A DNA stretch of 64,000 bases. It comes from Nitrospira sp. ND1 (GTDB lineage Bacteria; Nitrospirota; Nitrospiria; Nitrospirales; Nitrospiraceae). How positions within the stretch are numbered: position 1 is the first letter of the stretch; every line of letters starts with the position of its first letter. Location: NCBI RefSeq assembly GCF_900170025.1, contig NZ_FWEX01000005.1:859774-923773 (forward strand). The letters are read 5' to 3'. Under the pieces are notes generated by a model that worked only from the letters and a program-made list of their open reading frames with translations, ran no database searches and was not told where the DNA came from. Positions 6,229 to 30,238 of the stretch are shown here, piece after piece. The translations under genes were made by a program, and so were the position numbers.

Positions 6229-8190
6229 TTATCCCACCCCGTGAGAGACGACGCGAGACATCCCCTCTTTCCCCTCATCCCCTTCAGCAATGGCCATCGG
6301 CCAGGTCACGAGACCAGACACACCTTCTGCCGTCGTCGCGCCGTCCTTCGTCGCCGCGTAAATCTGCGGCAACTTGTTCGTCCCGAACTTGGAGATATAG
6401 AGGAAGACGTGCTCGCGGCTATTCACCCGCACGGCCCAGGGACTGAAGTCGTTCTTATAGAACTCTTCGCAGAGCTGCATCGCATCGAGGCAGGAAATAC
6501 CCACCGGCTCGTTCAGCGTGTAGTAGTAATCCAGCGGCAGGTCGTACTCCTCCTGCTTGTGGATCGTGATGCCGAATTTATCCGGGTTGCGCACCATCGG
6601 CGTGTGGCGGTAGGCCACGAAGTAGAACAGCTCCACGGAATGAATCACCGGCTGGTTCTCGATGACGAACTGCCGCGTCTCCAGCGCCTCCTCCCGCGTC
6701 TCGCCGGGGAATCCGTAAAACGCCATCACGTGGTTCCAGATGCCCGCCTTCGCCGCCTGGTGGAGATTGTTCTGAATCACGCTCTTCTTCGCGTGCTTGT
6801 CCATGAGATTCAGCACGCGCTCGTTCGCCGACTCCATTCCATAATAGAGCGTGCAGCAGCCCGCCTTCGCCGCCAGGTCCCACACCGCCTGGTCCTGGAG
6901 CGTCTCTTCGAAACGGATCAGCGTCGTCCACTTGATGCCGACGTTCCGGTCCACCAGCAGCTGCGACACTTTCTTGAACAGTGCGGGCGGATAGGATTCA
7001 TCGGAGAACAGGAAATGTCTGCACTGGTATTTATCCCGTAGCGCCGTCACCTGCTCGACCACGTGCTGCGCCGTCATCCCGCGGTATTGATCGAAATAGC
7101 CCTGGCCGTGATCGCAGAATGTGCAGCGGCCCCAATAACAGCCCCGCGTCGCGAGGTAGGGAATGATCCGCTCGGGAACGAAATAGTGATCCAGCGGCAA
7201 ACCGTCGAAATCAGGCAGCGGCAGCGCCGCCGTCTTCTCCGTATAAACTTCCTTGCTCTGCTGCACCGCGCCGGACTCGTAATACATGAGATTGGGCACC
7301 GACCCGATCGCGCGCTGCCCGTTCACCGCCTCGATGTACCAAAGCAACGCATGCTCGCCCTCGTAGAGGATGGCCGCGTCGAAGACTTCAGTGAAGAAAC
7401 GCTCATGCTTCGCCCACTCTTCCTGCAACCGCGTCACGACGTTGCCGCCGACCACGACGTGGATGTCGGGAAAACTTTCCTTGATCATCTTGCAGAACGT
7501 GAGGCCGGCCATCAGCTGCATCTGCGTGCCGATGGAGATGCCGATCACCGTCGGCTTTTCTTTGCTCACACTGGGCAACACGAGCTGATTGCAGATGTCG
7601 CGGTAGACGTTCACCTGTTCGTCGTCGAGGCAGGCAAAGACTTCCTTGGAGACCCCGGGCCGATAGCCCAGGTTACTTTCCATTGGATAGAACACCAGCG
7701 AGGCCGGATAGTAAGCGGCGGAGATGTACTGCATGGCTTCGCGGAACGTGTTCAGCGCCCGCTCCAGCTTCTCCGCTTCGTAGAACCGTTCGCCGCGCAC
7801 AATGAGCTTCGCGTCCTCCGAACGCTGCGCCAAGTCGAACACGTCTACGGCATAAGCCTCTTCCAGCACCGCCTTCTGACCGGCTTCCTGCTCCGTCAGC
7901 CTCCCCGCCTTCTCCTTGTCCTGGAGCGGCTTCAGCTGCATGCCCAGGCGACCCTTCACCCAGATCAGAAACTCCATGGTAAAGAAGTGATCGTACATCT
8001 CGATGTTGATGTCACGCTGAACCACCGTATGCCCGGCCTCCCGCAACACGGCAGTCAACGAAGGCAACGCGAGATAGGGTGCCGTCGGCACCCACTCGGG
8101 CGGGAACAGGAGCATGACCTTGGAAGTCTTCCGCTCCTCGTTCTTGATCGGAGACAAGCCGTCGATTTGGACCAGACCGGAGCTACTCAT
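6229..8190 (-). CDS. B12-binding-type radical SAM protein (paralog 1)
   Basis: A 653-residue protein with an N-terminal B12-binding-like Rossmann region (VMLLFPPEWVPTAPYLALPS from residue 25, and VVVGGNVVTRL near 246) and a radical SAM core whose cluster cysteines are 351, 356 and 359 in GCYWGRCTFCDHG. The spacing is CX4CX2C rather than the common CX3CX2C. The classic DxHxxG cobalamin loop is not visible, so cobalamin use is uncertain. It shares layout and many blocks with the next gene upstream (8321-10219). GGAAG precedes the ATG. No substrate is evident; related families methylate or rearrange unactivated carbons. Confidence 0.85.
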   Translation of the reverse strand: MSSSGLVQIDGLSPIKNEERKTSKVMLLFPPEWVPTAPYLALPSLTAVLREAGHTVVQRDINIEMYDHFFTMEFLIWVKGRLGMQLKPLQDKEKAGRLTEQEAGQKAVLEEAYAVDVFDLAQRSEDAKLIVRGERFYEAEKLERALNTFREAMQYISAAYYPASLVFYPMESNLGYRPGVSKEVFACLDDEQVNVYRDICNQLVLPSVSKEKPTVIGISIGTQMQLMAGLTFCKMIKESFPDIHVVVGGNVVTRLQEEWAKHERFFTEVFDAAILYEGEHALLWYIEAVNGQRAIGSVPNLMYYESGAVQQSKEVYTEKTAALPLPDFDGLPLDHYFVPERIIPYLATRGCYWGRCTFCDHGQGYFDQYRGMTAQHVVEQVTALRDKYQCRHFLFSDESYPPALFKKVSQLLVDRNVGIKWTTLIRFEETLQDQAVWDLAAKAGCCTLYYGMESANERVLNLMDKHAKKSVIQNNLHQAAKAGIWNHVMAFYGFPGETREEALETRQFVIENQPVIHSVELFYFVAYRHTPMVRNPDKFGITIHKQEEYDLPLDYYYTLNEPVGISCLDAMQLCEEFYKNDFSPWAVRVNSREHVFLYISKFGTNKLPQIYAATKDGATTAEGVSGLVTWPMAIAEGDEGKEGMSRVVSHGVG

Positions 8191-8202
8191 AGTCGTCTTC
8201 CG

Positions 8203-8315
8203 TGAAACACAAAACGTAAAAGGTGAGAGGGCCTAAAGAGGGCTACCTGCCGTTCAACATTCGATTCTCGCATGTTACGTTTCCCGTTTGACGTTTCGCC
8301 TTTCACGTCTCACGC
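8203..8315. repeat. R3 repeat between the two radical SAM paralogs
   Basis: Arms containing AACGTAAAAGGTGAGAGG and CGCCTTTCACGTCTCACG face each other across the 130-base gap between the paralogs. The element starts 12 bases before the start codon of paralog 1 and ends five bases from the stop of paralog 2. It could end the upstream transcript or affect the start region of the downstream gene. Confidence 0.65.
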
Positions 8316-8320
8316 CTTCG

Positions 8321-10219
8321 TTACATCTTTCCGGCTAAGGACGGCGGTACCGTGGCGACCCTCGCCGAACGGAACTGCAGGTCCGGCAGTTTCTGCAACC
8401 CAAACTGCGCGATGTAGAGGAAGATGTATTCGCGGATGAAGAGCCGCAGGTCCCAGCCGGGATTGTGATTCCGTTCGAATTCTTCAAACACCCGCTCGGC
8501 CTCCTCGATGCTCAACCCCTGCTTCACGGTGAAGTAATAATCGAGCGCCAGATCCCACTCGGGATTCTTGTAGGCGGTCACGCCGAACTTCTCCGGATGT
8601 TTCGCCACCGGGTTATGCCGGCCGAGGTCGAACGTGCCGAACCCCAGCGAATGCACATAGTCCTTGTTCTGCTCCAGAAACTCCACCGACGACCAGGCTT
8701 CCTCCCGCGTCTCGCCGGGAAAACCGAAGAAGCCCATGCAGTGGTTCCAGATGCCGGCCTCGGCGGTGTACTTCAGGTGTTTCGTCATGATCTCGGTCGT
8801 GGTCGCCTTGTCCATCAGCTTCAGCACGCGCTCGTTCCCCGACTCATAGCCGAAGTGGAGATATTTGCAGCCGGAGGCCTTCGCATCCTGCCAAACCTGA
8901 TCCTCAAGCAAGCTCTTCTCGAACCGCATGTGCGTGGTCCAGGCGATGCCCATCTTGCTGTCGATTAGGCCGCGCGTCAGCTTGCGAAACAGGGCCGGCG
9001 GGTACGACTCATCGGTGAAGTGAAAATGCCGCGCGCCGTACTTGTCCCGCAGATAGGTCACCTCGGCCAGAATGTCCTGAATCTTCTTCGTGCGGTAGCC
9101 AGCCGTGTAGCCTTCGCCGTGGTCGCAGAACTCGCAGCGGCCCCAGTAACAACCGCGCGTCGCCAGATAAGGCAGAATTTTGGTCGGCACGAAATACTTG
9201 TCGAGCGGCAGGCCGTCGAAGTCCGGCGGCGGCAGCGCGGCCATGTCCTCGGCGAAACTCGTCGCGGAAACATGCACCCCGGTCGCGTCCTTATAGATGG
9301 TGTTCGGCACATCGGCCAGGCTTCGCTTCGCCCCCACCGCCGACACCAACTGCACGAACGCCGTCTCCCCTTCATAGACCACGGCACTGTCGAAGTACTG
9401 AAACAGCGGCGACTGCGGGAGCACATCGCGCAGACGCGTGACCGTGTTGCCGCCAATCGTCACATGGATGTTGGGAAAGTGCTGCTTGATGAGGGCGCAG
9501 AAGGTCATGGAGGAAAACATCTGCTGCTGCAAGACGATCGAGATGCCGACCACGTCCGGCTGCTCCGCCTCGATCGCCGGCTTCACCAGATGCTCGAACA
9601 CGTCGCGGTAGATGTTCACCTGGGTGTCGTTCACCGCGTCCATCACTTCATGCGACACGAAAACTTTATAGGAGAGGTCGGTCTCCATCGGCGGCATGCA
9701 GATCCGCGCCGGGGCATAGACCATCGAGATCACCGATGTGACCTCACGGAATACATGAATAGCCCACTCTAGCTGATCGATTTCGTAGAAGACTTCTCCG
9801 CGAATGATCGCCTTCGCCTTCTCCGCCTTCTTGATCAGGTCATCGATCCGTTGGCGCGTTAAATCGCAGAGAGTGAGCTGGAGATCCTGCTCCCATTCCT
9901 CAAGTTCGCGTTTCTTCGCCAGCTTGCGGAGCCGGTCGAGCTGCTGCGGCACCCGGCGCAAGACCTTCTTCAGAAAGTCCTCGCTGAAGTACCAATCCCA
10001 CATCTCAAGGTTGATGTCTTTTTGAACGACCTGATGACCGGCCTGGCGAAGCACGGCGGTGAGGGACGGGAGACTGAGATAGGGTTCGGAAGGAAACCAA
10101 TCGGGCGGGAAGATCAACATGACCTTCATTTTCCGGCCGCTGGTGGCTTCGAAACTTTGACGATTGAGGAGGATCAGCTCTTTGGAAGCCCGTTCGCCCT
10201 TCGTATACTCGATGCGCAT
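8321..10219 (-). CDS. B12-binding-type radical SAM protein (paralog 2)
   Basis: A 632-residue protein parallel to paralog 1 throughout. It has VMLIFPPDWFPSEPYLSLPS at about residues 33-52, the cluster motif GCYWGRCEFCDHGEG with cysteines 357, 362 and 365, and a shared C-terminal region ending near ...LQKLPDL. A long charged segment (about residues 85-150) separates the first Rossmann strand from the rest, as in paralog 1. The two genes look like an old tandem duplication with different substrates or sequential steps. GGAG lies ten bases before the ATG. As in paralog 1, the cobalamin loop is not obvious. Confidence 0.85.
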   Translation of the reverse strand: MRIEYTKGERASKELILLNRQSFEATSGRKMKVMLIFPPDWFPSEPYLSLPSLTAVLRQAGHQVVQKDINLEMWDWYFSEDFLKKVLRRVPQQLDRLRKLAKKRELEEWEQDLQLTLCDLTRQRIDDLIKKAEKAKAIIRGEVFYEIDQLEWAIHVFREVTSVISMVYAPARICMPPMETDLSYKVFVSHEVMDAVNDTQVNIYRDVFEHLVKPAIEAEQPDVVGISIVLQQQMFSSMTFCALIKQHFPNIHVTIGGNTVTRLRDVLPQSPLFQYFDSAVVYEGETAFVQLVSAVGAKRSLADVPNTIYKDATGVHVSATSFAEDMAALPPPDFDGLPLDKYFVPTKILPYLATRGCYWGRCEFCDHGEGYTAGYRTKKIQDILAEVTYLRDKYGARHFHFTDESYPPALFRKLTRGLIDSKMGIAWTTHMRFEKSLLEDQVWQDAKASGCKYLHFGYESGNERVLKLMDKATTTEIMTKHLKYTAEAGIWNHCMGFFGFPGETREEAWSSVEFLEQNKDYVHSLGFGTFDLGRHNPVAKHPEKFGVTAYKNPEWDLALDYYFTVKQGLSIEEAERVFEEFERNHNPGWDLRLFIREYIFLYIAQFGLQKLPDLQFRSARVATVPPSLAGKM

Positions 10220-10340
10220 GAAGGCGGCTCCTGTATCGGTCCGGCACTCCGAAACAGTCAGAATGCCAAGGGGTTGGCTTGGAGTTCGTCATTGTACGAG
10301 GGGAAAAGATGGAGATGCAAGAGTGGCTTGATTGCCCTCT

Positions 10341-10520
10341 TGCTCGCGCAACGCGCGGCCTCGGAAGGCCCTCGTTGGACGCGCACGTGAAGCCGTGCTG
10401 GTCCCATGCGCGAAGTTGAAGGGTAACTCGGCTATTCCGGTGAGGGTGCGTGGAAAGCGCACCGCGCGGTCGCAGACTCCCCTCGTTGGACGCGCGCAGT
10501 TAGGAGACCACACAGGCCGC
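10341..10520. repeat. R2 palindromic repeat, two adjacent units
   Basis: Two units share CTCGTTGGACGCGC (about 10370 and 10482) preceded by CGCGCGG, at 10341-10388 and 10457-10500. A third unit lies after the YnfA-like gene. The gap 10220-10639, between the start of radical SAM paralog 2 and the YnfA-like gene, holds these repeats and presumably promoters for the two divergent genes, but nothing else was recognised. Confidence 0.6.
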
Positions 10521-10639
10521 CCCCTGGGAATGGGAGAGTGAAGTATATGACGTAAGCGTCAGGCAGTGCGGCTGCATTTGTCTCCTTCGCTCCACCGTGC
10601 TATGTGAGCACGAGTCGATCCCCTTTATTGGAGAATCGC

Positions 10640-10966
10640 ATGCTCATCACACAATCGATCGCCTTATTCGTGCTGGCAGGTCTGTTCGAAATCGGCGGCG
10701 GATATTTAGTCTGGCAATGGTGGCGGAACGGCAGCCACTGGAGCGTCGGCCTCCTGGGCGCGGTCATCTTGATTCTGTACGGCATCGTGCCGACCTACCA
10801 GCCGTCGCACTTCGGCCGGGTCTATGCCGCCTATGGCGGCTGGTTCATCATCCTGTCGATTCTGTGGGGGTGGCTCGTCGATCACGTGGAGCCGGATCGA
10901 TTCGATGTCATCGGCGCGATGGTCTGCCTGGTGGGAGTGGCGGTGATGATGTATTGGCCGAGATAG
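10640..10966 (+). CDS. YnfA-family small membrane protein (UPF0060)
   Basis: A 108-residue inner-membrane protein with four predicted hydrophobic segments, matching the YnfA/UPF0060 family of small drug-metabolite transporter-like proteins. The signature GRVYAAYGG is present, as is the acidic residue of [13 protein letters not shown]. Length equals the family standard. The open frame extends 12 codons upstream, but the ATG at 10640 follows TTGGAG at good spacing. It stands alone, bounded by R2 repeats on both sides. Transport substrate is unknown. Confidence 0.9.
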
Positions 10967-10991
10967 AAAGACGGGAAAGAGGAAGAGGCTG

Positions 10992-11073
10992 ACCTGGCGG
11001 TTCCCCATGCTCGCGCAACGCGCGGTCGCAGACTCCCCTCGTTGGACGCGCGCACGTAGGGAACCCGCCAGGC
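10992..11073. repeat. R2 palindromic repeat after the YnfA-like gene
   Basis: Outer arms CCTGGCGGTTCCC and GGGAACCCGCCAGG pair around a central unit TGCTCGCGCAACGCGCGG ... CTCGTTGGACGCGCGCA. It lies 26 bases after the stop codon, where a transcript terminator would be expected. Confidence 0.7.
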
Positions 11074-11317
11074 CACATTCCATCTCTCTGACAGCCATTG
11101 GCCTACAAAAAATGGATACAATTCCACAGACACTTCAGCCAACATTTTACGATTGATTTACTACCTTGCAAGGCGTAGGAAGGAATGCCCTGTTCTGCTG
11201 AGCTCATTGATTTCACAAGAAAAGACAACGCCCAATAGGGTGCCCCAAGAGACGAGCCAAAGCGACGCCCTCTACTTATCCGCTTAGACCAATAAACCCA
11301 CTGGCACAGGTGACCTC
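11074..11317. other. Non-coding lead-in to the helicase-nuclease gene
   Basis: About 240 bases, richer in A and T than the genes to the left, with no supported gene. It probably holds the promoter of the interrupted helicase-nuclease gene and marks the left edge of a transferred segment. No direct repeat or attachment site was recognised. Confidence 0.4.
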
Positions 11318-13054
11318 TTGAGCGACCAGCAGGTGTGCAGTCCAGAATCGCAGAAGGCGATTCGCCTTCTCGATTACCTATTAAGGCTGGCGACACTTCG
11401 GACAAAGCTGATCCGCGACATTTCCGAATACGAGAACGTTCTTTGGATCTCAGACGTTCCGCAGGAACGAGGCTGCTACACGCAGGCATGGGGACGTGAT
11501 GAGGAACATGAACCGGACGAGTGGATCGAGGTGCAAACTCGGCGCGAGCCAGAACTGCCGGCGGTCCCGTCTCAATGCAAAGACTGGGTGAACCCTTCAG
11601 CACTTCGAAACAAACACAATTTACCGGAACTCCGTCCTGAGATCACACGCCAAATCCATAATCCTGACTGGTCTGAAGGATCTGACCAGCCGGAAACGAT
11701 TCCACACACGGAACGCCTTGAAGATCAGTTCGTTGTTCAGCAAGCATGGGATCGCTACCTTCAAGGCAAGTGGTTACCGTGGATCGAAGAGCACAATGCC
11801 TGGGAAAAGATACATAAAGTATATTCTGCACTTTTCGCTATTCATCAAGCGCAACTTCGCCTTGGCGAAGAATACGAGCTCGTACTAGGCCTGGGCTTAC
11901 TTACCTGGCAAACGCCCAATGGGCAACGAGTCCGACGGCACTTAGTCGTTGCCGACGTCATTCTGGAATTTGAAGCTGGCTTGGGGAAATTTACCATCCG
12001 CCCCCACACTGAAGGTGCCAACCTGCGGCCCGAGCTCGATATGCTCGACATCGAAGACCAGCCAACTCGCGCGGAAGAAACCGCGAAAGGTTCATTGACC
12101 AGAGCCGCTGAAGACCCTTGGGAAACAGATTGCATAGAAGGCGTACTTAAGGCCCTGGTGCATTCGATCAACTCGCAAGGTGTTTACGACGATTCATTGG
12201 GACCCAAAACCGTCCGCACATCGACGAAACCACTCGCCGAATTTGCACCCGCCGTGATTTTACGCAAACGTTCCGCCAAAGGCCTCACCGAAACCCTAAA
12301 ACGGATCAAGGAGCAGATTGAAAACGGCCAAGACATTCCCGGTGAATTCGCAGACCTTGCGGAATGTCGTCCCAAGAACGATCGCGAAACGGGCGATGGC
12401 CACGAAGCCCCAAACAATAGCTTTGATGGAGAGGTCTTTTTCCCCAAACCATCGAACGATGAACAACGCCGCATTGTGAATAAAATTCGATCGGCGAGCG
12501 GTGTACTGGTGCAAGGACCGCCCGGTACCGGAAAATCCCATACCATCGCAAATCTTATCTGCCATCTGCTGGCGACTGGGAATCGCATACTTGTAACTGC
12601 AAAGACGCCGAGAGCATTGCAGGTCCTTTTGGGTGAAATCGATGAAAAGGAAGGCATCCAGAGTCACGAACCGTATAAAGAACGTCAAAGAGATAACGGC
12701 CTGATCCCAAAAGAAATCAAGCCGCTGTGCATCAGCCTACTAGGCAGCGGGCAGGAGGAAAGGAAGTCGCTAGAAGCGAGTGTCGGAGGCATACTTCGCA
12801 AAAACGAAGAGTGGAAACCGGCCGACACCGACCATCAACGAGAGGAACTTGAGAAGCGCCTCAGGGAGCTCCGCGAAGAGAAGGCTCGTGTCAACCTGAT
12901 CTTCCCCCGATTTCGTGGACACGTGGTTACGCGACTGCCGCCCTCGCTTCAAACTCGACTGGAGCGTGATAGCCGAGGGTCGAATGCTGACGCTGCCGAT
13001 TGTAGAACACCTCGATGTATTCGAAGATGTCCTGCTTGGCTTCGTCTCGGGTGA
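11318..13054 (+). pseudogene. SF1 helicase-nuclease, 5' part, cut by an IS element
   Basis: The true gene segment is 11318-12896; the frame then runs into the IS and ends by chance at 13054. It starts with TTG after AGGTGACC. The first ~390 residues match nothing I recognise; GPPGTGKS at 400-407 is a Walker A motif of a superfamily 1 (Upf1/RecD-like) helicase. After it comes a charged coiled-coil stretch. Joining this part to the 3' part at the IS target site gives one frame of 1637 codons. Proteins of this design (large SF1 helicase plus C-terminal nuclease) are often found in anti-phage islands. The lower GC than its neighbours suggests transfer. As it stands, this half lacks the other helicase motifs and the nuclease. 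Confidence 0.85.
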
Positions 13055-13790
13055 CATACGGTCGCTGGTGTACCAGCTCACGCTTGAGCGTCCCGAAGAA
13101 ACTTTCGACGCACGCGTTGTCCCAGCAGTTGCCTTTGCGACTCATACTGGGGATGAGGCCATACTCCGTGAGTCGCTGCTGGTAGCTCGTGGCGGCATAC
13201 TGACTGCCGCGATCCGAATGGTGCACGAGCCCTGCCCTGGGGATTCGATTGACCAAGGCCATGGTGAGAGCCTGCTCGGCCAACTCACCCGTTAAGCGGG
13301 GGCCCATGGCCCAGCCGACCACCCGGCGTGAGTACAGATCCAGCAGGACCGCCAGGTAGAGCCAGCCCTCCATGGTCCACACGTAAGTGAGGTCTCCGGC
13401 CCACACCCGATTTGGAGCCGCAACCGTGAAGGCGCGATCAAGGGTGTTCGCGGCCACGGGGAACCGATGCTGGGACTGGGTGGTGGCGCGCCACTTCGTC
13501 ACGGTCTTCGCCCGAATGCCGCCGTGGCGCATCAGCCGGGCCACGCGATGCTCGCCAACGCGGTGCCCCTGTTTGACCAGGGCGTTCCAGATGCGGGGAC
13601 TGCCGTAGGTCTCCCGCGACTCTCGGTGAATCACCCGAATGGCCGAAAGGAGTGTACGCGTCTGGCTCGACCGGGCACTCTCCGGCCGTGACCGCCATGC
13701 GTAATAGCCTGCCGCCGCAACGGCGAGGGCACGGCACATCACGCGGATGGGATAGCGACGGTCGTGCTCCTGGATCACTCGATATCTCAT
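12927..13790 (-). CDS. IS3-family transposase OrfB (copy 1)
   Basis: A 287-residue DDE integrase-fold transposase. The catalytic triad is visible as Asp in WAGDLTYVW, Asp in HHSDRGSQYA, and Glu in NACVESFFGTLKREL. The N-terminal part is the HTH_21-type region (YGSPRIWNALVKQGHRVGEH). Its ATG overlaps the end of orfA in an ATGA junction, so it is translated by coupling or as an OrfAB fusion. The frame is intact, so the element may still be active. It lies antisense to the helicase gene it interrupts. Confidence 0.95.
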   Translation of the reverse strand: MRYRVIQEHDRRYPIRVMCRALAVAAAGYYAWRSRPESARSSQTRTLLSAIRVIHRESRETYGSPRIWNALVKQGHRVGEHRVARLMRHGGIRAKTVTKWRATTQSQHRFPVAANTLDRAFTVAAPNRVWAGDLTYVWTMEGWLYLAVLLDLYSRRVVGWAMGPRLTGELAEQALTMALVNRIPRAGLVHHSDRGSQYAATSYQQRLTEYGLIPSMSRKGNCWDNACVESFFGTLKRELVHQRPYVTRDEAKQDIFEYIEVFYNRQRQHSTLGYHAPVEFEARAAVA

Positions 13791-14083
13791 CGCGACTCCT
13801 TCGCGAAGAACGCCGCCGCACGCTTAAAAAAATCCCGCTCCTGCTTCAAGGTGGCATTCTCTCGTCTCAACCGGGCGAGTTCCGCCTGTTCGGCTCGTGC
13901 CGATTGCCGTGTCTGGCCCTGCCCCTCCGCCTGCTGCTGTTCGGCCCTCCAGCGGTAGAGCAGATGGTCAGCAATACCCAGGTCCCGGGCCACGTGTGTG
14001 ACAGGCCGTGCCGAGTCTCGGACCAACCGGACCGCTTCTGCCTTAAACTCGTCCGTGTACTGCCGTCTGGTTTTCGTGGTCAT
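13787..14083 (-). CDS. IS3-family transposase OrfA (copy 1)
   Basis: A 98-residue DNA-binding partner of the transposase, with a helix-turn-helix (FKAEAVRLVRDSARPVTHVA then LGIADHLLYRWR) and a C-terminal leucine-zipper-like coiled coil (ELARLRRENATLKQERDFFK). The ATG at 14083 has GGAGG just upstream; the frame extends seven more codons to 14104. A run of seven T residues near its end, on the coding strand, may allow frame slippage to form OrfAB. Confidence 0.9.
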   Translation of the reverse strand: MTTKTRRQYTDEFKAEAVRLVRDSARPVTHVARDLGIADHLLYRWRAEQQQAEGQGQTRQSARAEQAELARLRRENATLKQERDFFKRAAAFFAKESR

Positions 14084-14307
14084 TCCTTCCTCCGATCTCA
14101 TCACATTCCTCCTTATACAGGTGTCTGTGAAATCGGGGGAAGGTCAACCGCCGCCTCCGCGACATCCGGGAATCCGAAACTCATACGCACTCGATAGCAG
14201 CGAGTGCGTATTGTGGAACAGCGGCCAGAATCGCTGAAGCCGTAAACCGCGACCGATTTACCCATGACTGGTTTGTAGATTCCGTTCCTTTTGACAAATC
14301 TTGCCAA

Positions 14308-17300
14308 GTGTCCACAAGCGCCATGCGAAGCATCCTAGCGGCTGTACGCCAATTCACGCCGGCAAACCGCAGAGAATTGGAGCTTACATGGCCAGAGGGA
14401 CTGCCATCAAGTGAACGTTTTGTGGACCTTGTAAAGAGTGAGGCCCGTGCCATAGAGGATGAACGGAACTCGGAAAATGGCGCCGATGTACGCATCGCAA
14501 ATATGTTGCTAAAAAGCAGTTCCGTGACCATCGAGTCGATTTGCGACGCGCTGTCCGCTTTTCGCGATACTCGGAAGCGATTGTTGACGAGCTCTCATTC
14601 TTGGATGAAAGAGGCCTTACGCGATATCTCGAGCAGCAGTTCATCCCTGTGGCGTGAACTTCTGCGCGCTATGCGAGACGTTATTCCGGCAATCGAGAAA
14701 CACGTTGCGGTCGCGGACAACACCAACCTCGAATTCCCAGATGCTACTGACATGCGAACGTTGCTTGACGACGCTCGTACTCTGAACGAACACTTGGAGA
14801 ATGGCGGCAGTTTGGGTTGGGGCATCTTTCGACCCAGGCTAGTGAAGGAGCGGTTGTACGTCGTTCAGTCTGTCAAGATAGGTGGGCGTCTTTGCTCCAC
14901 CGGCGAACATTTCTCAACTCTTGCCGACGCGCTATATGTACGCATCGAATTCGAGAAAGCATGGGGATTTTGGAAAGGACGAAGTGAACAAATTCAAGGC
15001 CCATACACTCTCCAACTAGCAACCCTCAAAGCGCTACGTGAAGCGCTCGAAAGTGCCTTGGCTCTGGAAGAACTCATTGCCCAATCCCGTGAAACGCTGA
15101 GACAATGTCCAGAACTGGGCGAGCCCGTATGGACCGACGAAATCCACCTTGATAGGGCGGTCTCATCATGTCGCCTCGCTTTAGCTCGTATCCGCAAACG
15201 GCTTGCCACAGAGGAAATACAGACTATCGAGACTGCGATTTCACGCAGGGCTGCTACAAACGATGCACATCCTGCAAGCAGTGATTTGCTAAAGGCCGTT
15301 CGCGGTCGCGACGGAGATGGATTTGCTCGTTGCGCAAATATGATTCAGGATTTGAACAGGCAACGAGAACTGCTTCAGCGGGTGGATAAAGATCTCTCTG
15401 AACTACGCCAATTGTTACCGAAGCTTACAAAGTCCTTGGAACACACTTGCACCGAACCCCACTGGGAGGAACGACTCCAACATATTGACGCTGCCTGGCA
15501 ATGGGCGCAGGCACGCTATTGGATAGAAGACTACATTCGGCAGGAAGACGCACCGGCGCTCGCCAAGCGCGCAAAACAGATCGAGGAGGAAATCAACAGC
15601 GTCGTTGCCAAGCTCGCGGCACTTCATGCGTGGTCTTTCTGTTTTAAGCGAATGGAAGAGCCTCATCGCCGACACATGGAGGCCTGGTGCAAGTACGTCA
15701 ATTCGCTGACCAAAACCGGCAAAGGCAAACGCGACTTTCGTAATCGTCAGGCAGCTCAGCAAAGCCTCAATAAGTGCAAAGATGCCGTTCCCGCATGGGT
15801 GATGCCTTTGCACCGCGTCTGGGACACGGTAGACCCAACGCCAGGCATGTTCGACGTAGTCATAGTTGATGAGGCTTCGCAGTGCGGGTTTGAAGCATTA
15901 CCACTTCTTTATCTCGGGAAAAAGATCTTAATCGTCGGAGATGATAAACAGATCAGTCCCGGTGGAGAGTTTCAGGATGCTACGCCAATAAGCAAATTGT
16001 TGGACGAATATTTATATGATTTCAGCTTTAAAGAATACTTCGATATCAACGTTAGCCTTTTTGAACATGGAAAACTCCGCTATGGAACTCGACGTATTAC
16101 GTTGCGGGAGCACTTCCGCTGCATGCCGGAAATCATTCGTTTCAGCAACGATCTTTGCTACTCGGACACACCACTGATTCCCTTAAGGCAGTATGGCCCG
16201 AATCGGCTACCACCGTTGGAGCACGTTTTTGTGGACGGTGGATATCGCGAAGGGTCGCATAACAGGACGATTAACCGCCCAGAAGCCGAGACGATCGTCG
16301 AAAAGATCGCCCAACTGTGCGAAGACAGCCGGTACGACGGCAAGACAATAGGAGTAGTGGTGCTTCAAGGTGAGGCACAAGCGGCATTGATTGAGCATCG
16401 ATTGCTTGAGCGATTGGGCGCTGAGGAGATAGAGCGGCGGCGCCTGGTCTGCGGCAATCCCTACAACTTCCAGGGCGACGAGCGCGATATTATACTCCTG
16501 TCGCTAGTCGCGGCCACCAACGAAAGAATTGGCTCTCTCTCCAAAGCCCCGGATGAAAGACGCTTCAATGTTGCAACCAGCCGTGCTCGCGATCAGATGA
16601 TTCTCTTCCATTCAGTGACATGTAACGACCTCAGCGCGACTTGCCTTCGGCGGCGATTGCTGGAGTTTTTTGAAAATAAGCAGCCACGACAAATTGCCGG
16701 ACTGGAGAGAAACGAACTTGAACGGCGAGCAGCACAGGACAATCGGCGCCTTGTGAATCCTCCCCCACCATTCGAAAGTTGGTTCGAAGTTGACGTTGCC
16801 CTTGCACTCCTGCGCAAAAACTTCACGGTGCTTCCCCAATACGAATTCGCAGGTAGGCATATTGACCTCGTCGTTGAAGGCGGGCGGGCGCGCTTGGCTG
16901 TGGAGTGCGATGGCGACCAGTGGCACGGGGCAGACCGCTACGAGGCCGACATGCAACGCCAGCGACAGTTAGAGCGATGCGGTTGGGAATTCTTCCGTGT
17001 AAGAGAAGCAGCTTTTTATGCCAACAAAGAGAACGCGCTTGCAGGGTTATGGGGAGCGTTGGAAGAAAGAGGCATTTCCCCGAACATACCTGATAGGGAG
17101 CCAGCCCATGAAGAGAATTCAGAAAAAGGGGATTGGGGCACATCGCAAATGGATAATGCTGCAAATGACGATTGCCTAGACGACGAAGATAACTTTCCAT
17201 CGGAGAGTCCAAGCACTGACTTCACGCCATCTGGCCGGAAATCCGAAGACATAACCCCAGGGGAAATACAAGAAGCTATTATTCAGGCTCTAGGTAAGTG

Positions 17301-17484
17301 CCCCAATCAGTCTTGCACCTTACATTCGCTTACCGCTCGCGTCCTTAAAGAGCTCGGCGTGTCAACGCGTGGGAAGCCCCGTGAAGCATTTGAGAAGCGA
17401 ACCATGCGCTCCGTCAGCATCCTTGAGACGCGTGGCCGCATTGAGACTTACAAAGCAAAAAATCGAAGGTTGAGGCTTCTCTAA
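14308..17484 (+). pseudogene. SF1 helicase-nuclease, 3' part
   Basis: In-frame sequence resumes at 14150, directly after the target duplication; the first possible start inside it is the GTG at 14308. In the joined protein, DEAS of the Walker B motif is near residue 1100, followed by helicase motifs LREHFRCMPEIIRFSND, CGNPYNFQGDERDIILLSLV and RFNVATSRARDQMILF. Near residues 1420-1490 is a PD-(D/E)XK fold like the MTES_1575/DUF559 or Vsr nucleases, with HIDLVVEGGRARLAVECDGD and QWHG as the active-site region. The last ~70 residues look like a winged-helix domain. Without Walker A, this fragment cannot be a working helicase, though the nuclease part could still fold. Confidence 0.85.
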
Positions 17485-17505
17485 CAGGAAACGACATGCG
17501 CCAAT

Positions 17506-17613
17506 GAAATGGGGTCAGGTTTGCAATCACATATTTTCCAATGCGCGGCGGATCACTCCTTCCCCTTCCCCTTCCACCTCATTCAGTCTCGTTGCCCGAT
17601 TGACTCACTCGGC
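17506..17613. repeat. R4 dispersed repeat, copy 1
   Basis: Starts 22 bases after the helicase-nuclease stop with GGGTCAGGTTTGCAATCACA and continues through CCTTCCACCTCATTCAGTCTCG to ACTCACTCGGCA. The same ~105 bases occur at 23400-23505 after the histidine kinase gene, and the first ~30 bases occur at 19263. The GGGTCAGGTC-TTGCAATCACA wording resembles sequence around REP-associated Y1 transposase genes; no transposase is present here. Confidence 0.65.
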
Positions 17614-17737
17614 ATGGAGGAGTAGGGTTTTCACCGCGCTCCCAACCAGCCTCGCCATTGGTCTTCAGATGTGATTGGGTGAGCGTGCGTACAGCTGTAC
17701 GTCGACGAATCCACAACCTTCGAGGAGGGACACACCT

Positions 17738-18742
17738 ATGTGGAGATCACTCGCAGCCACCGCCGCGCTCACCGTTACACTGACTCTCCCCGCTCTTGTC
17801 GTGGCGCAAGAGGCGCCCGCCACTCAGAAATCGCTGCCTGAACAACTCGTCGACGCCTTCAACGGCGTGTTCGGTGTCCATCCTGGAATGCGCGCCAATC
17901 ACCCGAAAGGCGTCGCCCTGGAAGGCACGTTCACTCCTGCCGCTTCGGCGGCCTCGGTGAGCAAAGCCGCTCACCTGCAAAAGAAGAAGACTCCGGTTCC
18001 GGTCACAGTGCGGTTCTCCGCCGGATCAGGGCAGCCGAACGTTCCGGACACCAGCCAGATGCCGCGCGGTATGGCCGTTAAGTTTTCACTTCCCGACGGG
18101 TCCAAGACGGATCTCGTGGTCCTTTCGTTCAACGGATTTCCCGTGGCCACGGCGGAGGAGTTCAAGGACTTTCTGCTCGCGGTTGGGGCCAGCGGACCCG
18201 ATGCTCCAAAACCCACAGCTATCGAGACGTTTCTGGGCGCCCATCCGGCTGCCAAACATTTCGTGGAGAGCCCGAAGCCACAACCGGTGAGTTACGCCAC
18301 GCTGCCCTATTTCGGGATCAACTCCTTCAAGTTCACGAACGCGAAAGGCGCCGTCACATTCGGTCGTTATCAACTCCGACCCGTGGCGGGCGAGCACTTT
18401 CTCACCCAGGAACAATTGGCCACGGCGGAGCCCGATTATCTGACCACTGAGATACGTGAACGGGTGCGCCGAAGTCCCGCCAAGTTCAAACTAATGCTGC
18501 AGGTGGCGGAGAAAGACGACCAGATCGACGATCCCACGATCGTGTGGCCGGATACTCGCAAGCAGATCGAATTGGGCACGATCACCATCACCAAGGCCGT
18601 GGCGGACAGCCAAGCCGCCGAGAAGAAGTTATTCTTCATGCCGGGAGCATTGGTTCCCGGTATCGAAGCTGCCGATCCGATGATCGCTGCCCGTTCAGCG
18701 TCCTATATCGTGTCTCTGTCGCGACGAGCCCAGGCTCAATGA
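17738..18742 (+). CDS. Secreted catalase-related peroxidase
   Basis: A 334-residue protein with a signal peptide (MWRSLAATAALTVTLTLPAL then VVAQ) and a small catalase-fold domain. Family blocks include GMRANHPKGVALEGTF, VTVRFSAGSGQPNVPD, PRGMAVKF and FGINSFKFTNAKG. It is much shorter than true catalases, like the SrpA-type catalase-related peroxidases that use organic peroxides or peroxide in the periplasm. Haem binding is expected from the family. The frame is open 21 codons further upstream, but GAGGAGG lies just before the ATG at 17738. It stands alone and ends at a terminator shared with a convergent gene. Confidence 0.88.
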   Translation: MWRSLAATAALTVTLTLPALVVAQEAPATQKSLPEQLVDAFNGVFGVHPGMRANHPKGVALEGTFTPAASAASVSKAAHLQKKKTPVPVTVRFSAGSGQPNVPDTSQMPRGMAVKFSLPDGSKTDLVVLSFNGFPVATAEEFKDFLLAVGASGPDAPKPTAIETFLGAHPAAKHFVESPKPQPVSYATLPYFGINSFKFTNAKGAVTFGRYQLRPVAGEHFLTQEQLATAEPDYLTTEIRERVRRSPAKFKLMLQVAEKDDQIDDPTIVWPDTRKQIELGTITITKAVADSQAAEKKLFFMPGALVPGIEAADPMIAARSASYIVSLSRRAQAQ

Positions 18743-18780
18743 CGCCAGAACAATAGCTGGATTGCGCCTGATGGTATCGC

Positions 18781-18815
18781 CACCCGGTTGCGGATCATGA
18801 ACCGGGCGTGCTTTT
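18781..18815. terminator. Terminator between convergent genes
   Basis: CACCCGGTT pairs with AACCGGGcGTG across a ten-base loop and is followed by CTTTT, ending the catalase-like transcript. It touches the stop codon of the convergent DUF1398 gene. Confidence 0.7.
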
Positions 18816-19230
18816 AATCGCGAACGCGTGATTTCGGCTCCGCGCCGGGGAACCACTCGGTGTGCTGATCCCCTTGCCTGCCCAAATATGTCACGCGCGC
18901 GCCCTTCAGAAACGCAAAGTAGCCCTGCACTCCGGCTCGCATGGCCCGTTGTGAGAACTCACGAAACTGCTGCCCGTCCTGCTGACTATCCAGAATCGTC
19001 TGGCGCAATGCGGCCACATCAAAGTCCTTCGCGACAGCCGGCAACCCTTCGAAGGTCAGCGGAGCGACGACGCTTGCGGCGTTCGTCCCGTAGAATGTGA
19101 ACTGCAGCAGGATGTAATCCACATGGTAGTACTCGACACCGGCCTGAATAAGATTCCGCACGATCTCCGGAAACGGCAGCGAGCCGGTGAGGCTGGCACG
19201 AGCGGCTTGAAGTACAAGGTCGGAATTCAC
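18814..19230 (-). CDS. DUF1398 family protein
   Basis: A 138-residue cytoplasmic protein matching the DUF1398 (YbcV-like) family. Typical segments are FPEIVRNLIQAGVEYYHVDY, the phrase FYGTNAASVVAP, and a C-terminal sheet with GVQGYFAFLKGARVTYLGRQ. Function of the family is unknown. GGAGG lies a few bases before the ATG. It is convergent with the catalase-like gene; upstream is a partial R4 repeat. Confidence 0.8.
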   Translation of the reverse strand: MNSDLVLQAARASLTGSLPFPEIVRNLIQAGVEYYHVDYILLQFTFYGTNAASVVAPLTFEGLPAVAKDFDVAALRQTILDSQQDGQQFREFSQRAMRAGVQGYFAFLKGARVTYLGRQGDQHTEWFPGAEPKSRVRD

Positions 19231-19262
19231 GCGGCCTCCTTCTCAGAGCAAAAAAACTCTCC

Positions 19263-19297
19263 AAATCGGGTCAGGTCTTGCAATCACACATTCTCCC
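19263..19297. repeat. R4 dispersed repeat, short copy
   Basis: Contains TCGGGTCAGGTCTTGCAATC followed by ACACATTC, the first ~30 bases of the R4 unit seen in full at 17506 and 23400. It lies between the DUF1398 start and the end of the next minus-strand gene. Confidence 0.55.
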
Positions 19298-19327
19298 TAC
19301 CGCCGTAGAAACTCACACCAGGCACAG

Positions 19328-19747
19328 TTATCTCGTCCTTGCCCGGTTCATTTTCCAAACGAGAACGGCAGCAACTATCGTGAGCGGCACCAGGAGCAAG
19401 AGCCCGATTGAGAGGCTGTATACGGGCGCGCCGAGCAAGCCGGAGTTTCGGGAATCGTGATAATCGACCCCGTTGGCAGCGATAAACGAGGCGACCAGCA
19501 AGCCGACAGACGAAACGACCACCACGCGCAGGAGCCACCACCAGCCGCCCCCTCCCGGCAGATAGGACGTCAAAAATGTGAGGGGAATCCCGGCCAACGG
19601 AATCGCAAGCCAGAGTGTCTCGAGGAACTCGTTGCCTGCAGGTGTCGAAGGTTCATTCCCCGCCGCAACGAAATAGACCACAAGGCTGATGGCGATCCAC
19701 AGTCCTTCGGGCCCAAGCAGTATAGAGACGACAGGCCGCATCACCAC
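19328..19747 (-). CDS. Four-helix membrane protein of unknown function
   Basis: A 139-residue inner-membrane protein with about four hydrophobic segments (near residues 5-28, 47-62, 69-92 and 108-131) and a short basic C-terminus. A GGGG-WWW turn follows the second segment. I do not recognise the family. It precedes DUF1398 on the same strand; three small minus-strand genes (19328, 19787, 20072) are closely spaced and may share a transcript. Confidence 0.6.
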   Translation of the reverse strand: MVMRPVVSILLGPEGLWIAISLVVYFVAAGNEPSTPAGNEFLETLWLAIPLAGIPLTFLTSYLPGGGGWWWLLRVVVVSSVGLLVASFIAANGVDYHDSRNSGLLGAPVYSLSIGLLLLVPLTIVAAVLVWKMNRARTR

Positions 19748-19786
19748 CTCGGGGCGGCACCCTGGCTCCGCGACGAGGACACTCGT

Positions 19787-20050
19787 CTAGCGTCGTCCGG
19801 CCTTCCGGAGCAACTCTTTCTTGCCGCGCGGCAGGTGAAAGTCGCACTGCAGCCGGCGGAAGAACTCCACTCCTTCCAGCCTTGCGAGGTCCGCCGGTAT
19901 CGCGACTTCTTTCAACGACTGCCCTTTCATCGGCTCGATCCGGATATGCACCGGCTTTCCCTTGTGATCCTTACCGGGGATGAGCACGCCTCCCCCCAGG
20001 ATCGCACCCTTCTTATCTGTCAACACATGCATGGTCCGTTTGGCTTTCAC
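19787..20050 (-). CDS. Small conserved-looking protein, function unknown
   Basis: An 87-residue soluble, basic protein beginning MKAKRTMHVLTDKKGAILGG, with short strands and loops and a C-terminal QCDFHLPRGKKELLRK. No motif I can name. AAGGAGG is placed seven bases before the ATG, so translation is likely. It lies 21 bases downstream of the 100-residue gene on the same strand and is probably cotranscribed with it. Confidence 0.6.
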   Translation of the reverse strand: MKAKRTMHVLTDKKGAILGGGVLIPGKDHKGKPVHIRIEPMKGQSLKEVAIPADLARLEGVEFFRRLQCDFHLPRGKKELLRKAGRR

Positions 20051-28604: not shown

Positions 28605-28932
28605 CCGGTAATCGCCGGCCTTCGTCCGACGCACACCCGGCCGGCTCCGTTCCCACTGAAACATTGTGCGACAGTTCTGAGTTCGATCGCGGATGCAGGC
28701 CGGATGGCGCGCCCGTGAGTTAAGCGCGAGATAGATCGACGTGTTAGGCCTGGATGTGACTGCTCAACTAATTGGAGAAGCTCGGGAGGCAGGGGGCAGT
28801 GACTTTAGCGTCATTTCTTGTGAGAACATCGCTGCCGGACGATTGAAGGCCTCCGTGGGTCAGGCTGTCTGACCTTCCCCCGATTTCACAGACACTTCCA
28901 TACGTGGGAGAATGAGGAAATCGGAGGACAGG

Positions 28933-29229
28933 ATGAGCACGAAGACACGACGGTCGTATACGGAGACGTTCAAGGAAGAAGCGGTGCGGTTAGTCCGGGA
29001 GTCAGGGCATCCCGTCGCCCAGGTGGCGCGGGATCTGGGGATTGCCGATCATCTCCTCTACCGATGGCGAGCGGAGCAGCAGCAGGCAGAGGAGCGTGGA
29101 CAGACCCGGCAATCTCTCCGGGCCGAACAGGCGGAACTGATCCAGCTCCGGCGTGAAAATGCCGTACTGAAGCAGGAACGAGATTTTTTAAAACGTGCGG
29201 CGGCGTTCTTCGCGAAGGAGTCGCGATGA
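28933..29229 (+). CDS. IS3-family transposase OrfA (copy 2)
   Basis: A 98-residue DNA-binding protein, helix-turn-helix plus coiled coil, closely parallel to OrfA of copy 1 (FKEEAVRLVRESGHPVAQVA, then LGIADHLLYRWR). The start at 28933 follows GGAGG; the frame extends to 28912. A run of six or more T residues precedes its end, and the stop overlaps the OrfB start (ATGA). Confidence 0.9.
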   Translation: MSTKTRRSYTETFKEEAVRLVRESGHPVAQVARDLGIADHLLYRWRAEQQQAEERGQTRQSLRAEQAELIQLRRENAVLKQERDFLKRAAAFFAKESR

Positions 29230-30089
29230 GATACCGAGTCATTCAGGAACACGACCGTCGCTATCCGATCCGCCTCATGTGCCGAGCACTGGCGGTTTCC
29301 CCTGCGGGGTATTATGCGTGGCGCGGACGTCCCGAGAGTCGGCGGGCCGCCGCCAATCGGACGCTCCTGGTCACCATCCGCGTGCTCCATCAGGACAGTC
29401 GCCAGACCTACGGCAGTCCGAGCATCTGGCGGGCGCTCCGCAAGCAGGGCCACCAGGTGGGAGAGCATCGCGTGGCGCGGCTGATGCGCCACGATGGCCT
29501 CCGGGCCAAGACCGTGAAGAAGTGGCGGGCCACGACGTACTCGTCGCACGGCTTGCCCGTGGCGGCAAACACGCTTGACCGCCAGTTCAGGGTGCCCCAG
29601 CCCAACCAGGTCTGGGCGGGCGATATCACCTACGTCTGGACGCTGGAGGGCTGGCTGTATCTGGCCGTGCTGCTGGATCTGTACTCGCGTGCCGTCATCG
29701 GCTGGGCGATGGGCCCGCGCTTGACCGGAGAGTTAACCGAACAGGCCCTCCGCATGGCGCTCGCCACGCGGCAGCCCTCAGCAGGACTCCTGCATCACTC
29801 CGATCGCGGGGGGCAATATGCGGCAGGGGCCTACCAGCAGTTGCTCACCACGTATGGCATCACGGCCAGCATGAGCCGCACCGGCAATTGCTGGGACAAC
29901 GCCTGTGTCGAGAGCTTCTTCGGAACATTGAAGCGGGAACTCGTGTACCATCGGCACTATGCCACACGAGCGGAAGCGAAACAGGACATCTTCGAATACA
30001 TCGAGGTGTTCTACAATCGGACGCGTCGGCACTCGACCCTCGGCTATGACTCCCCCGCCGAGTACGAAGCGAGGACCGCAGTCGCGTAA
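29226..30089 (+). CDS. IS3-family transposase OrfB (copy 2)
   Basis: A 287-residue DDE transposase equal in length to that of copy 1. Catalytic residues: Asp in WAGDITYVW, Asp in HHSDRGGQYAAG, and Glu in NACVESFFGTLKREL. The frame is intact and starts in an ATGA overlap with orfA. About four residues in five agree with copy 1 by eye. Confidence 0.95.
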   Translation: MRYRVIQEHDRRYPIRLMCRALAVSPAGYYAWRGRPESRRAAANRTLLVTIRVLHQDSRQTYGSPSIWRALRKQGHQVGEHRVARLMRHDGLRAKTVKKWRATTYSSHGLPVAANTLDRQFRVPQPNQVWAGDITYVWTLEGWLYLAVLLDLYSRAVIGWAMGPRLTGELTEQALRMALATRQPSAGLLHHSDRGGQYAAGAYQQLLTTYGITASMSRTGNCWDNACVESFFGTLKRELVYHRHYATRAEAKQDIFEYIEVFYNRTRRHSTLGYDSPAEYEARTAVA

Positions 30090-30238
30090 CCTGGTGTCCA
30101 TGAAACTGGGGGAAGGTCAGTCTGCAACTTCGCGCTGCTGGGAAAGAGTCGGTCGCTAACCTGCTCCTCGCGATTCCCTCACTGCTGAACGACCGAGGAG
30201 CACGTGTCGTCCAAGCCCTCTATCCGGTCAAGCCACTT

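Follow-up and report, generated by a model that had tools for sequence, protein, structure and literature searches.

A probable anti-phage helicase–nuclease gene of Nitrospira sp. ND1 is split by an IS3-type element

What did the interrupted gene at 11318–17484 encode before it was split, and is it likely to work today? The gene lies in a 64,000-nucleotide stretch of the genome of Nitrospira sp. ND1 (the window, to which all coordinates refer unless another locus is named). Here we conclude that it was probably a solitary, horizontally acquired defence gene for one large SF1B helicase–nuclease, and that it is now very probably dead owing to the insertion of an IS3-type element.

The initial annotation held that joining 12896 to 14150 restores an intact frame of 1,637 codons. 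A scripted join gave exactly this frame, with one terminal stop, and the remaining five frames of the joined DNA have 38–83 stops; a chance origin is excluded. The GC content of the gene is 52.6%, compared with 58.7% for the window, in line with the lower GC first reported for it. In tblastn alignments, the joined protein runs as one unbroken stretch through residues 526/527 in L003, L004, L006, L008, L011, L016, L028 and other homologues, and there is no gap around the junction in close relatives. As intact relatives can be aligned continuously over the join, the gene was, as far as they show, whole before the insertion; a frame that was already broken in relatives was sought, and the homologues proved unbroken at this site.

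The interrupting element is assigned to the IS3 family on the basis of two overlapping transposase ORFs, an rve transposase, terminal repeats and a 3-bp duplication (Table 1). The inverted repeats and the ACC on both sides bear out the earlier claim that the gene was cut at an ACC target. No near-identical copy of the element was found in the genome (others are 76% identical, and one partial copy 79%) or in 60 relatives (best, 82%), so the element itself cannot date the insertion. A second IS3-type element, at 28870–30119, is 76% identical to the first, has the opposite orientation and carries its own 3-bp GTC duplication.

Table 1 Features of the interrupted gene and its flanks in the window.
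Feature	Position	Strand	Remarks
Small membrane protein gene, left edge of variable spot	10640–10966	+	Conserved in relatives
Left part of helicase–nuclease gene	11318–12896	+	TTG start, N-terminal domain, Walker A, first part of helical insertion
Walker A	12515–12538	+	Helicase motif, left part; residues 400–407
Target duplication ACC, left copy	12894–12896		
IS3-type insertion sequence	12897–14146	-	1,250 bp; 26-bp imperfect terminal inverted repeats
IS OrfB, transposase	12927–13790	-	HTH_21 and rve integrase core; frame open
IS OrfA	13787–14104	-	Frame open
Target duplication ACC, right copy	14147–14149		
Right part of helicase–nuclease gene	14150–17484	+	Rest of helical insertion, Walker B, motifs III–VI, nuclease, C-terminal domain, stop
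Walker B	15856–15882	+	Helicase motif, right part
Motifs III–VI	15937–16596	+	Right part; motifs II, III, V and VI at residues 1096–1342
MTES_1575 (Vsr-like) nuclease domain	16780–17061	+	Pfam PF18741; residues 878–970 of right half; 93 bits
C-terminal small helical domain, winged-helix-like	17254–17481	+	Predicted helices, pLDDT about 70–88
Catalase-family gene, right of spot	17675–18742	+	Patchy in genus

Judged by its sequence and predicted structure, the product is an SF1B (Upf1/IGHMBP2-like) helicase joined to an MTES_1575 nuclease. It matches AAA_11 and AAA_12 in Pfam, and Walker A, Walker B and motifs III–VI occur in SF1 order, which places it among the SF1B Upf1/IGHMBP2-like proteins; these motifs and a Vsr/MTES-like nuclease had been read from the joined frame at the outset, and all are present. 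In structure comparison, the second RecA part resembles Upf1, Ighmbp2, Sen1 and Dna2 at Z 17–19. The MTES_1575 match is complete (model positions 1–96 of 96, with a score well above the cut-off of 38.2 bits), and the acidic residues of the nuclease are invariant in the family alignment, as befits a member of that family. A sequence search with the nuclease domain alone found no solved structure. Between motifs Ia and II, the predicted structure contains an almost wholly helical insertion of about 600 residues, and it is here, between motif I and motif II, that the element landed.

The N-terminal part, about 390 residues of which had been left unassigned, contains a conserved domain (residues 1 to about 345–370) that is predicted mostly at pLDDT 75–94 and includes a long helix as well as a beta region. 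Among solved structures, Foldseek gave no match at E ≤ 0.001 and VIA none above Z 4.5. Alignments with Ighmbp2 and Upf1 span the region weakly (Z 3.4–4.4; best Z in the PDB comparison, 4.5), a weak hint that part of it may be the stalk/1B region that precedes motif I of Upf1-like helicases. At the other end of the predicted protein, a low-confidence linker follows the nuclease and leads into a helical domain of about 75 residues. A small domain is thus predicted where a winged helix had been annotated; the winged-helix-like label itself is suggested by analogy with the architecture described in PMC3710099.

With the right half as the query, we recovered 26 related loci across bacterial phyla and one record titled archaeon MAG; most full-length ORFs in the family encode 1,480–1,806 amino acids. 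The closest three, which are two deltaproteobacterial loci and L002, share 58–65% identity with the query, compared with 40% in its own family. Because the closest relatives are in other phyla, sequence similarity indicates that the gene was acquired by horizontal transfer. Among plasmids there were partial or distant relatives only, none covering 80% of the query. The orthologue is absent from 28 relatives in the genus, three of which have weak, partial matches, and the gene is therefore present in 1 of 29 genus genomes, the window genome itself. Across the phylum, matches at E ≤ 1e-60 occur in 24 of 296 genomes, a patchy presence of the kind that is usual for defence genes. L002 is 75% identical to L003 and lies on a contig labelled ‘archaeon’ MAG, which may reflect recent transfer or a misbinned contig.

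Genes for BREX, Wadjet, restriction or Mokosh-like systems occur within 10 kb of six of the eight Firmicutes homologues, a raw count without a random-locus baseline in which BrxC and PglX count two each. The neighbours are Wadjet JetC and a type IV enzyme (L005), BREX BrxB–BrxC–PglX (L006), a type IV enzyme (L007), JetC and a gene 57% identical to the BrxC of L006 (L009), an MkoA-like helicase (L012), and a type III enzyme with an HKD+Snf2 protein (L020). At a threshold of E ≤ 1e-15, PADLOC models matched none of the larger neighbours that were scanned at the deltaproteobacterial, acidobacterial and actinobacterial loci. We looked for homologues in core, non-defence settings, which would have spoken for a different role, and found that many sit among defence genes. 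The best database relatives likewise support defence, as they are the anti-phage ProA and Hhe, PADLOC PDC-S37 and Mko proteins. From the domains, relatives and neighbourhoods together, the intact form probably had an anti-phage role.

The strongest competing explanation is that the protein serves DNA repair or recombination in some lineages, as a helicase–nuclease with a Dna2- or AddAB-like role. Its motor is structurally as near to Dna2 as to other SF1B helicases (Z 17–18), but such a role fits poorly with the patchy presence in genus and phylum, the horizontal origin, the defence-rich neighbourhoods of the homologues and the anti-phage nature of the nearest named families; we consider it unlikely.

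The chromosomal spot offers a second view of the gene. To its left lie a radical-SAM gene, found in 25 of the 28 genus relatives at 90–98% identity, and the small membrane protein gene, which we take to be of the ynfA/UPF0060-like family; the catalase-family gene to its right occurs in nine. Conserved DNA stops near 11076, just past the ynfA-like gene, and resumes near 17570–17590 in two relatives carrying the catalase gene. Defence-type genes occupy the same spot, past the radical-SAM gene and, where there is one, the ynfA-like gene, in five relatives. Three of these encode a 306-amino-acid Mrr-type restriction enzyme (L062, identified by PADLOC; L048 and L050, 90–94% identical to L062). A fourth has adjacent genes (L047:2746–6680, minus strand) that match the C-terminal and N-terminal parts of Dsr1 (SIR2), which suggests a split two-gene Dsr1-like system, and the fifth has a single-gene SIR2 + nSTAND protein immediately after the ynfA-like gene (L053:3591–6038). 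Other relatives have spot genes of non-defence type (a subtilase, an AcrB-type pump and transporters). The region past the radical-SAM and ynfA-like genes seems to be a defence-gene hotspot in the genus, a provisional reading that draws on those spot genes that were scanned and takes account of the relatives with non-defence genes. No tRNA-type integration site was seen, as there is no Rfam match at 10000–20000 and no tRNA in the window.

Tandem B12-binding radical-SAM genes (6229–10219) are about 48% identical to each other and are paired in most genus genomes. Near the same spot, L054 (8320–12132) and L063 (a 1,256-amino-acid gene) encode a protein of about 1,260 amino acids that is 84% identical between them, and the L054 copy has no Pfam or PADLOC match. 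Three relatives (L055, L059 and L064) carry a second copy, whole or partial, of the ynfA-like gene beside the spot.

How long ago was the gene split, and was it sound until then? Neither half contains a stop or frameshift in the 4,911 coding bases, so the absence of further decay noted in the initial annotation holds over 4.9 kb. Given that 4.3% of point changes in these bases would create a stop, neutral divergence since the insertion is below about 0.25–0.7% (95%) under assumed indel-to-substitution ratios of 0.2–0.05. The earlier view that the insertion is recent therefore survives as a bound, with no disabling mutation and with changes in proportion to branch length, and draws no date from the IS copies. 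One alternative is that the insertion hit a gene that was already non-functional through amino-acid change. In its favour, the window protein departs at 9 of the 191 columns that are conserved in ≥90% of homologues, compared with 1, 2 and 6 in the three closest relatives, but it also has a proportionately longer branch (163 private changes versus 27, 37 and 84), and we therefore see nothing to indicate that constraint was relaxed. Against L004 and L002, relative-rate tests mostly come out near parity, and the helicase motifs and nuclease acidic residues are intact. In both halves, pN/pS is 0.24–0.35; with synonymous sites saturated, this low ratio speaks for long-term purifying selection. Relaxed constraint before the insertion was considered and is unsupported by the conserved-column deviations, branch length or pN/pS, and we judge prior decay to be improbable.

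That the system is switched rather than lost, with both fragments still made and cooperating or with IS-free cells coexisting, is very unlikely: both halves are open and undecayed and the right half has a 1,058-codon ORF with a GTG start at 14308, but the two Walker motifs lie on separate fragments, a lack of decay is equally expected after a recent insertion, and there is no sign of excision, which is not usually clean in IS3 elements.

We therefore return to a solitary defence gene, inactivated by the insertion. When intact, the protein would use its Upf1-like motor to load on foreign DNA (at an end, a gap or a replication intermediate) and translocate, and its choice of substrate may be gated by the N-terminal domain together with the long helical arm that separates motifs Ia and II. 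The Vsr-like nuclease would then cut the DNA, aided by the C-terminal winged-helix-like domain. Many Upf1-like helicases work on RNA, and a DNA substrate is for this reason not certain. As the element splits the gene between motifs I and II, placing Walker A and Walker B on separate fragments, neither fragment has a complete ATPase site and function in this genome has very probably been lost.

The locus is a clear example from nature of an insertion sequence that has switched off a probable defence gene. Its wider interest lies in the intact family and the possible hotspot: it points to a widespread helicase–nuclease family that is close to ProA, Hhe and Mokosh without belonging to any of them and whose intact single-gene members, present in many phyla, are open to direct cloning and testing, and it marks a chromosomal spot that seems to gather defence genes in the genus. 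We put forward, tentatively and with rather less confidence than for the gene itself, that the intact family (the window gene, L002–L022, L028 and the phylum hits) may constitute a distinct anti-phage system that consists of one gene and senses through an N-terminal domain of its own, and that the stretch past the radical-SAM and ynfA-like genes may be a genus defence hotspot.

How does this protein compare with known systems? The helicase–nuclease part of the intact homologues, from Walker A to past the nuclease, aligns with ProA (NCBIfam NF058533) at 209–225 bits (E of about 1e-61 to 1e-67), and the right half scores 167 bits. These scores are far below the curated equivalog cut-off of 1,500 bits, and the ProA N-terminus of about 640 residues is unmatched by the homologues. 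Hhe (NCBIfam NF042953; PADLOC PDLC02194) shares motifs II–VI and the Vsr-like nuclease, but the scores (right half, 100 bits; intact homologues, 130–176) are well short of its cut-off of 2,000 bits and its DUF4011-type N-terminus is not found here by Pfam. In PMC10250203, DUF4011 is only a flank marker. The best PADLOC match is PDC-S37, a candidate defence gene with a 1,550-position model; in L006 and L017, the alignment extends from before Walker A to past the nuclease (203–231 bits), whereas model positions 1 to about 290 are unmatched, and the PDC-S37 group is itself a prediction. Mokosh MkoA and MkoC have a related SF1 helicase core (84–143 bits for the best matches), but the similarity is confined to the helicase region of the models, does not extend to the nuclease domain and falls short of full length.

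Beyond PMC3710099, we found no literature on ProA, PDC-S37 or a helicase–Vsr fusion. That paper proposes a stand-alone action on invading DNA for giant proteins of the SF-I helicase + Vsr + wHTH type. The window protein resembles these giants in its SF1 helicase, MTES_1575 nuclease, C-terminal winged-helix-like end and lack of an accompanying methylase, and differs in that no HEPN or transglutaminase domain was found in it. The window gene thus represents a known type of protein in inactivated form, and is not wholly new because intact relatives occur in many bacteria.
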